A stretch of DNA of 39,290 bases from Bacteroidales bacterium (GTDB taxonomy: Bacteria; Bacteroidota; Bacteroidia; Bacteroidales; UBA12170), in contig JAGGUP010000123.1 in the NCBI GenBank assembly GCA_021158405.1, positions 1-39,290 of the forward strand. Reading direction: 5' to 3'. The stretch's first letter is position 1. The number at the start of each line of letters is the position of its first letter. Shown here piece by piece: positions 3,194 to 37,661 of the stretch. The position numbers and the translations under genes are program-made. The notes beneath the pieces were generated by a model, which saw only the letters and a list, made by a program, of their open reading frames with translations, was not told where the DNA came from and did no database searches.

Positions 3194-3226
3194 AGTCAAA
3201 CGATGACTCGAAGTCATCTTTTGACT
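3194..3226. repeat. REP-like palindrome, variant copy 2
   Basis: Left arm AGTCAAACGATGACT, loop CGA, and a right arm that is complementary except for one position. It lies just after the DUF3820 stop. Compared with the other copies the outer arm reads AGTCAAA on one side and TTTGACT on the other, so both sides have changed together. Confidence 0.85.
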
Positions 3227-3259: not shown

Positions 3260-3292
3260 AGTGATACGATGACTCAAAGTCATCGTATCACT
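3260..3292. repeat. REP-like palindrome, copy 3
   Basis: Perfect 15-base arms AGTGATACGATGACT with a CAA loop, 30 bases before the transposase start. With the copies after the gene it brackets the transposase, the usual layout of a RAYT locus. Confidence 0.9.
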
Positions 3293-3322: not shown

Positions 3323-3973
3323 ATGGATTTCGAAAAAGAATACATCTACCACATTTACAACCAAGGTAATAATCGATGTAAGATATTTTTTAATCGCGAA
3401 AATTATTTGTATTTTCTAAAGAAAATAAAAGAGCATATTTCTCCATATGCTGATATTCTATCTTGGTGTCTGATGCCTAACCATTTTCATCTGATGGTTT
3501 TTATAAAACCGGATAGTGAAACATTGAAAATATTAAGGGAAATAAGTGATACGATGACTACAGGTGGATTTATTGATACGATGACTCCGAGTCATCGTAT
3601 CAATAAACCAAAAAATACCTTAAACAATTCCATTGCTGTTATGTTAAGATCTTATACAAGAGCAATTAACAAACAAGAAAAACGAAGCGGATCTCTTTTT
3701 AAAGCACACACAAAAGCTGAATGTATTAATTGCTTCAAAGGAATAACACCTTCTTTTATTTTTAGTGACGGAATAACCATTTCAAAGTCGCAAAACCATG
3801 AGCATGAATATCCTTCTGTGTGTTTTCAGTATATTCATCAGAATCCTGTAAAGGCAAATTTAGTTTCAAAGGCATCAGATTGGGAATTTTCCTCGGCAAT
3901 GGACTATGCAGGTTTAAGAGATGGGCTTTTAGTGAATAAAAAATTAGCTGAAGAATATGGGTTGGTTTTATAG
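3323..3973 (+). CDS. REP-associated tyrosine transposase (RAYT, Y1/HUH family)
   Basis: A 216-residue HUH endonuclease of the IS200-like Y1 transposase superfamily. RAYTs cut and rejoin single-stranded REP hairpins and are thought to spread them. YIYHIYNQGNNR opens the fold, MPNHFHLMV supplies the HUH pair (His54, His56), and YIHQNPVKANLV near the end carries the probable catalytic Tyr170; WEFSSAMDYAGL is also typical of Bacteroidota members. Between the HUH strand and the helix NNSIAVMLRSYTRAINKQ there is an insert (about residues 76-97) that is a translation of one full and one half REP palindrome, in frame. The gene is bracketed by further palindromes. All key residues are intact, so it is probably functional. 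It carries no recognisable terminal inverted repeats and is likely a single-copy domesticated gene. Confidence 0.9.
   Translation: MDFEKEYIYHIYNQGNNRCKIFFNRENYLYFLKKIKEHISPYADILSWCLMPNHFHLMVFIKPDSETLKILREISDTMTTGGFIDTMTPSHRINKPKNTLNNSIAVMLRSYTRAINKQEKRSGSLFKAHTKAECINCFKGITPSFIFSDGITISKSQNHEHEYPSVCFQYIHQNPVKANLVSKASDWEFSSAMDYAGLRDGLLVNKKLAEEYGLVL
3544..3605. repeat. Half and full REP palindromes inside the transposase coding sequence
   Basis: AGTGATACGATGACT (half unit, from about 3544) is followed by a full 35-base palindrome at 3571-3605, identical to the one at the topB stop. The reading frame passes through without a stop and translates to a peptide containing DTMTPSHRIN. Confidence 0.9.
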
Positions 3974-3977
3974 ATCT

Positions 3978-4069
3978 ATAGTGATACGATGACTTGAGTC
4001 GCGGTTAAGTATAGTGATACGATGACTTGGAGTCATCGTATCACTATTCGGAGTCATCCTATCACTATC
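3978..4069. repeat. Cluster of REP-like units after the transposase
   Basis: There are three parts. A half unit ATAGTGATACGATGACT starts at about 3978. A complete palindrome lies at 4011-4047, with ATAGTGATACGATGACT arms around TGG. A right half with one change (CATCCTATCACT) lies at 4048-4069. Tandem complete and half units are typical of mosaic REP clusters. Confidence 0.85.
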
Positions 4070-35811: not shown

Positions 35812-35844
35812 AGTCATACGATGACTCAAAGTCATCGTATGACT
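35812..35844. repeat. Lone REP-like palindrome, distant copy
   Basis: Perfect 15-base arms AGTCATACGATGACT around CAA, 28 bases after the lgt stop and about 32 kb from the RAYT gene. Compared with the 3260 copy, one G-C pair in the outer arm is exchanged (AGTG/CACT against AGTC/GACT), so pairing is kept. Confidence 0.9.
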
Positions 35845-37634: not shown

Positions 37635-37661
37635 GAGGGTTTCACTTTGAGTGAAGCCCTC
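37635..37661. repeat. TTCACT-N3-AGTGAA hairpin, copy 1
   Basis: GAGGGTTTCACT and AGTGAAGCCCTC pair in 12 steps (one T-G) around TTG, six bases after the dehydrogenase stop. Two further copies follow in the same gap. Its centre, ACT-N3-AGT, is shared with the RAYT palindromes. Confidence 0.7.

Follow-up and report, generated by a model that had tools for sequence, protein, structure and literature searches.

A REP-like palindrome carried in frame within a RAYT transposase gene and its likeness to the repeat copies around it

A RAYT gene from a Bacteroidales bacterium contains, in frame and between its HUH and Y motifs, a full 33-bp palindrome that is identical to a repeat copy at the 3′ end of topB. 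Across homologous genes the corresponding loop usually holds a palindrome in one codon phase, more palindromic than its peptide needs and often matching the repeat copies of its own locus better than those around the nearest relative. We consider it probable, at roughly two chances in three, that the palindrome within the gene has long resided there as the third unit of a REPtron, kept REP-like by the same process, whichever it is, that makes the outside copies resemble one another, filtered by the reading frame and accommodated in a permissive loop. Exchange between units would be the cause of the likeness, a step that we infer.

The RAYT gene and its in-frame palindrome

The window, the whole stretch of 39,290 nucleotides that was analyzed, is contig G000:C163 of a draft genome that totals 2.94 Mb and is split into 187 contigs. 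The features around the RAYT gene are as follows.

2909–2941, no strand: 33-bp palindrome identical to the in-gene unit, at the topB 3′ end
3194–3226, no strand: imperfect relative of the palindrome, upstream of the RAYT gene
3260–3292, no strand: upstream flanking palindrome AGT..CAA..ACT
3323–3973, + strand: ORF of a RAYT/TnpA-REP-like Y1 transposase, 216 aa, stop-free across the insert
3479–3490, + strand: HUH motif NHFH, residues 53–56; N53, H54, and F55 invariant and H56 nearly so in 76 aligned sequences
3545–3559, + strand: in-frame half unit AGTGATACGATGACT, codons S75–T79
3572–3604, + strand: in-frame full 33-bp perfect palindrome ATTGATACGATGACTCCGAGTCATCGTATCAAT, codons I84–N94, peptide IDTMTPSHRIN
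3830–3847, + strand: Y motif YIHQNP, residues 170–175; Y170 invariant in the 76-sequence alignment
3980–3994, no strand: downstream half unit
4011–4047, no strand: downstream flanking palindrome; a partial unit then extends to about 4066

The ORF at 3323–3973 matched the Pfam family PF01797 (Y1_Tnp) at E = 1.8e-5 and scored 51.4 bits against NCBIfam NF047646 (REP_Tyr_transpos), which is under the cut-off of 80 for that model. The best PDB match to its fold model was 4er8 (E 1.8e-6), the RAYT–REP hairpin complex of E. coli TnpA-REP, a system in which we know of no in-gene REP; YIHQNP of the window protein aligns with YIYINP of 4er8, and Y170 is presumably the catalytic tyrosine. The protein has the HUH plus Y-motif single-tyrosine transposase fold by which RAYT/TnpA-REP proteins are recognized, and on both sides of its gene lie palindromes of a kind dispersed through the window genome, another mark of such genes. 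The first-pass annotation had described a half unit and a full unit at 3544–3605 that are read through in frame without a stop, the full unit being identical to the topB-end copy, and direct reading of the sequence bears this out, with the coordinates right to within a base or two. Its further claims, that the insert lies in a loop after the HUH strand and before the following helix and that the catalytic residues are kept, also hold: both NHFH and YIHQNP are intact, and the fold model, in which confidence is at least 90 for 146 of 216 residues, places the insert in a low-confidence stretch (ten-residue means of 52–70 over residues 61–100) between strand 54–61, which is the HUH strand, and the long helix 100–118. 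A weak helix at residues 66–77 is drawn within this stretch, and the loop that contains the in-gene unit is probably disordered.

Together with its neighboring bases, the in-gene unit forms a 19-bp perfect inverted repeat at 3569–3607. The loop has a palindrome score of 19 compared with a best score of 10 in 100 shuffles of the loop, and these shuffles and the genome copies rule out a chance palindrome. As RNA, positions 3535–3620 are predicted to form a hairpin inside the ORF (−28 kcal/mol, z = −5.45). The sequence GATACGATGACTNNNAGTCATCGTATC is present in 13 exact full copies in the window genome and its reversed control in none; half-unit matches with at most one mismatch number 57 (32 + 25 by strand), compared with 4 + 7 for the reversed control. 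Contexts were read for all 13 exact full copies, with the single half-unit matches on contigs C12, C21, and C28 outside this reading. Within these own-genome stretches the RAYT unit is the only full copy clearly inside an ORF of at least 80 aa; the full copies at L153 and L155 touch ORF ends, and L159 and L163 each have one half-unit match, with one mismatch, within an ORF. The topB-end palindrome supplies the topB stop codon TGA (2919–2921) and overlaps the start of an 89-codon frame.

Several copies in this genome have paired changes on both arms (CATACG..CGTATG, AATACG..CGTATT, and GATACAATG..CATTGTATC), and some, such as that at L153, have changes on one arm. The in-gene unit of the window belongs to the sub-type ATT..CCG..AAT, as do the topB-end copy and one on contig C4. 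The AGT..ACT sub-type is found in the two nearest flanks of the window gene (3260–3292 and 4011–4047) and in the in-gene unit of its nearest homologue, L064. Elsewhere in the window, one more full palindrome is found at 35812–35844 between listed ORFs, about 32 kb from the RAYT gene; its outer change, AGTCATACG..CGTATGACT, is paired. One palindrome of a different type, GAGGGTTTCACT..AGTGAAGCCCTC, lies at 37635–37661. The latter type, which is found in-gene in other RAYTs, has 2 copies within two mismatches in the window genome.

Palindromes in the loop of homologous genes

Homologues were taken as the best 80 of 445 relatives from one scan, which with the window gave 81 loci. Among these best 80 of 445 relatives and the window, a palindrome with a score of at least 9 was found in 60 of 75 readable loops, a prevalence that is inflated because the query itself included the palindrome peptide and, of the six seed patterns, one lay in or beside that peptide. 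The six loci that were unread in the 75-loop count (L076, L077, L078, L092, L107, and L115) had a short ORF or were missed by the motif expression; separate loop scoring gave palindrome scores of 10–15 for L076, L077, L107, and L115. Fifty-eight of the 75 loops are more palindromic than all 100 synonymous recodings of their own peptide, which rules out that the palindrome is driven by the peptide. Furthermore, the palindrome center falls at mid-codon, in one phase, in 58 of 60 loops, despite another frame being open in 38 of the 60, and this points to a long-resident unit that has been rewritten in place. The suggestion in the first-pass annotation of a hot, tolerated self-insertion thus survives in part: the palindrome is of the gene's own type and the loop tolerates it, but the single codon phase speaks against recent events.

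In 54 aligned 33-mers, 14 of 15 stem positions have a Watson-Crick pair in 50–54 sequences, and the pair types vary across the stems, hardly so at positions 1, 2, 5, and 15. The exception is stem position 7, with a Watson-Crick pair in 33 of 54 sequences and a mismatch in 20 (C/A in 13, T/G in 7). This recurrent mismatch resembles the stem irregularity of E. coli REPs and could mark strand or orientation; in the portion of the literature available to us, such an irregularity is described for E. coli REPs, which carry GTAG, unlike the window palindrome.

Nine family loci outside the main set could also be scored (L008, L010, L012, L034, L181, L182, L194, L196, and L198), of which five reach at least 9. 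The palindromes of L008 and L196 are in a phase other than the main one, and therefore re-insertion or frame change also happens. This extra sample did not count L183, L187, L191, L192, L193, L195, L197, and L199, which are without both motifs, or the remote loci L184–L186 and L188–L190. One of the remote loci, L185, carries a palindrome of another kind. Within the main set, 15 of the 75 loops, all of them in open ORFs, fall short of a score of 9; some of these appear decayed and others empty. Eight of these 15 loci have a palindrome scoring at least 12 within 250 bp of the gene (L080, L088, L097, L104, L114, L131, L139, and L142). In-gene units therefore seem to be dispensable, if those low-score genes are active. 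A class-wide sample added little: at E 1e-40, 6 of 395 genomes had a match, counting the one from which the window comes. In a near-relative sample, 26 of 60 genomes had a match at E 0.001, many of these being partial or remote.

A few loci have additional features. L127 and L140 have, between the post-loop helix and the Y motif, peptides such as SQGFTWSEAMT and SQTFTLSEGLT, which may point to another in-gene unit located in a second loop. In the L111 loop, the peptide ETKITGHA and variants of it are tandemly repeated four to five times after the palindrome. The RAYT frames of L094, L099, L118, L127, and L140 are far longer than the 200 codons that are usual, in many cases extending to where the stored locus ends, and look as if fused to a downstream frame; these overrunning frames have 669–862 codons in one count, and the open frames 669–1050 aa in another.

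Match between in-gene units and the copies outside the gene

For 62 palindromes out of 78 loops, we asked for an 11-mer shared with the gene's own flanks. Such an 11-mer was present for 41 of the 62, compared with 8.8 on average and 18 at most over 2000 permutations and with 504 matches in 3782 foreign pairings; no own-flank 11-mer match was found for the other 21 of 62. When full units were compared in the 56 palindrome rows of a 76-row tree, in which bootstrap support was not settled, a match was present in the gene's own flank for 39 of 56 in-gene units and in that of the nearest relative for 19 of 56, with discordant cases split 25 to 5. This comparison weakens mere shared ancestry as the source of the match. 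The first-pass annotation had proposed a comparison of homologues as a check; across them the loop varies and often matches the palindromes of each locus.

Further full copies of the own type were counted within 2 kb of the gene for the 60 palindromes of the 75-loop set. They are present at 43 of 60 loci, 80 copies in total, and no further full copy was found within 2 kb at 17 of 60; the count took the gene as at most 780 bp, and in run-on frames (e.g., L094, L099, L118, and L127) a downstream unit may count as in-gene. Fifty-eight of the 80 copies are no more than 100 bp from the gene, and only 7 of 80 are in another ORF of at least 100 aa, though 179460 of 214106 flank bases are ORF.

A panel of 16 genomes by four palindrome types was then used for genome-wide matching. 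Among nine panel genomes whose RAYT carries the type in question, seven have exact copies of it besides the in-gene one (12 in G000, 5 in G060, 21 in G063, 2 in G064, 4 in G065, 1 in G066, and 1 in G068), and no exact copy of the own type beyond the in-gene unit was found in the other two of the nine, G061 and G069. Off-type pairings gave exact copies in 3 cases out of 55: G069 had two copies, and G070 and G071 had one apiece. If up to two mismatches are permitted, the types match 6, 5, 10, and 9 of 16 genomes, with reversed controls at 0 throughout, and related types are therefore more widely shared.

One homologue has a palindrome of the window type in its gene and a different type in its genome, the observation that the first-pass annotation had named as counting against its idea; the proposed match therefore holds often but not strictly. 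This counter-example is L070, whose genome (G061) has 8 copies of the AACACCGTGACT type, one of which is the unit upstream of the RAYT gene. L070 and L082 are sister RAYTs (tree support 97/82). In L082 all three units, those on either side of the gene and the one within it, share the arms AGTAACACCGTGACT. L070 has upstream AGCAACACCGTGACT, a near relative of AGTAACACCGTGACT, inside the window type, and downstream the window-type variant AGTGGTACGATGACT. The state of L070 looks like a change caught part-way. In L088 the in-gene sequence differs from its flanks, and in L080 and L142 flanking palindromes are present with no strong palindrome in the gene.

At 42 loci, each in-gene unit was also compared with the best of the copies in its own flanks. 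The proportion of differing sites is 7.1% in the arms and 29.4% in the central triplet, with up to 8 of 30 arm mismatches accepted in a flank copy. The triplet is identical at 16 of 42 loci and differs at 9 of the 14 loci with identical arms. Because the triplet differs more than the arms, recent whole-unit copying can explain some loci, such as that of the window, but not the majority. That the arms are kept alike more than the center fits ongoing recognition of the arms; the same picture would be expected if the triplet were mutating or being replaced faster.

Origin of the in-gene unit and relation to known systems

The long-resident unit that we favor would belong to a REPtron whose RAYT family occurs mainly in Bacteroidota and which in the fullest cases has three units: one just before the gene, one just after it, and one in-gene. 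The in-gene unit would be old in the family and still REP-like, its arms paired and like the outside copies, with the triplet and the rest of the loop drifting. The RAYT would cut and join single-stranded REP hairpins, and exchange or conversion between neighboring units would rewrite the in-gene unit along with the population, accompanied by hairpin-templated correction of one arm by the other. The reading frame may act as a filter that retains 33-bp units with a three-base center that are stop-free in frame. Several points count against this explanation: the arm constraint could stem from selection on the gene, the in-gene units of L070 and L088 mismatch most of their outside copies, a part of the palindromes has no match in the own flanks or no further full copy within 2 kb, foreign pairings and related types also match, and L008 and L196 have another phase. 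A regulatory device, in which the RAYT binds or cuts the in-gene hairpin in its mRNA or in replication single-stranded DNA and so exerts negative feedback or cis-restriction that limits repeat spread, is possible but in our judgment improbable, and it is compatible with a resident unit, as the two do not exclude each other. It would account for the strong predicted RNA hairpin, the scarcity of repeat copies within other genes, the excess of palindromicity over synonymous recodings, and the arms that stay like outside copies while the triplet drifts, but it sits poorly with the low-scoring loops in open ORFs, among them those of L080 and L142 with their strong flanking palindromes. We know of no RNA binding by RAYTs. 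A stronger version, that the palindrome is a maintained functional site through which the RAYT recognizes its own gene or mRNA by a built-in copy of its substrate, with substrate changes written into the gene and enzyme, seed repeat, and feedback site co-transferred horizontally, appears a shade more doubtful than the device itself.

As improbable as the regulatory device is a pure passenger, namely a permissive loop near dense flanking repeats that is repeatedly struck by insertions and unconstrained afterwards. It agrees with the low-confidence loop of the fold model, with the gain of additional half units or tandem repeats seen in the window, L069, and L111, with a different codon phase in L141, L008, and L196, and with the decayed or absent units at some loci, but not with the single phase where other frames were open or with the conservation of the arms relative to the triplet. 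It is unlikely, at what we would call very long odds, that the encoded peptide is itself the functional part, through DNA contact or protein interaction. A T-x-S pattern is frequent and the phase is shared, but the pattern is explained by the DNA core, which is ACT-NNN-AGT; moreover, other phases (L141 and L196) yield unrelated peptides, the loops are more palindromic than a peptide requires, and model confidence at the loop is low. Directly after the loop comes a helix that may be equivalent to the DNA-binding helix proposed for RAYTs in the available part of PMC8266576, a correspondence that we propose, but the subclass 2.4 model in the portion of PMC6006769 available to us puts this region away from DNA.

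In-gene REPs are not a new discovery. According to the part of Quentin et al. 2018 (PMC6006769) available to us, TnpA-REP subclass 2.4, which holds RAYT group 4 and occurs in Cyanobacteria, Bacteroidetes, and other phyla, has REPs both flanking the gene and inserted within its reading frame, as a rule after the HuH and before the Y motif, with variable length and sequence, and the in-gene REP is called unique to this subclass. The phenomenon is therefore known, and the window RAYT shares with subclass 2.4 the in-frame REP between the HuH and Y motifs and an HUH motif, NHFH, that fits NH[IFV]H. It differs in three listed features and for this reason was not filed there: the Y motif is YIHQNP in the window protein and the family consensus rather than YIxNNP; there is no W at residues 57–169 of the window protein or in the consensus stretch that would hold the WQ motif, if that motif lies between HuH and Y as we infer; and the feet are AGTGAT or ATTGAT in most copies here rather than GT[AG]G / C[TC]AC, a comparison with the double-foot REP of a subclass that also has a canonical long REP type. 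Subclass 2.6, which holds RAYT group 5 and in the same part of PMC6006769 is mostly from Bacteroidetes with non-canonical palindromes, resembles the window RAYT in host group, in its palindromes, and in a Y motif, YIH[QN]NP, that YIHQNP fits, but its HUH motif is NH[LIV]H, and F55 of NHFH is invariant in the 76 rows. With the main trait of subclass 2.4 and the Y motif of subclass 2.6, the window family is perhaps a separate subgroup, as judged by the motifs listed for the two. In-frame palindromic repeats in protein genes are also described, in the available part of PMC3733652, for Rickettsia palindromic elements and for REPs inside ORFs. The Rickettsia elements are inserted in many unrelated genes, unlike the full unit here, which lies clearly inside the RAYT alone among ORFs of at least 80 aa in the own-genome stretches read.

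What is added to the known phenomenon is the codon phase, palindromicity beyond the need of the peptide, the match to own copies beyond that to the nearest relative, the rarity in other genes, and the turnover. Phase, own-copy match, and turnover are absent from the subclass 2.4 account in the portion of PMC6006769 available to us, and the literature searched, supplements aside, yielded no functional study of an in-gene REP unit. The finding bears on what keeps RAYTs and REPs matched to each other. An enzyme gene that includes a copy of the substrate, one that synonymous changes can break, offers a direct way to ask whether a REP acts on its own transposase, and natural cases of turnover, such as L070 compared with its sister L082, provide genes in which the in-gene and outside units disagree.
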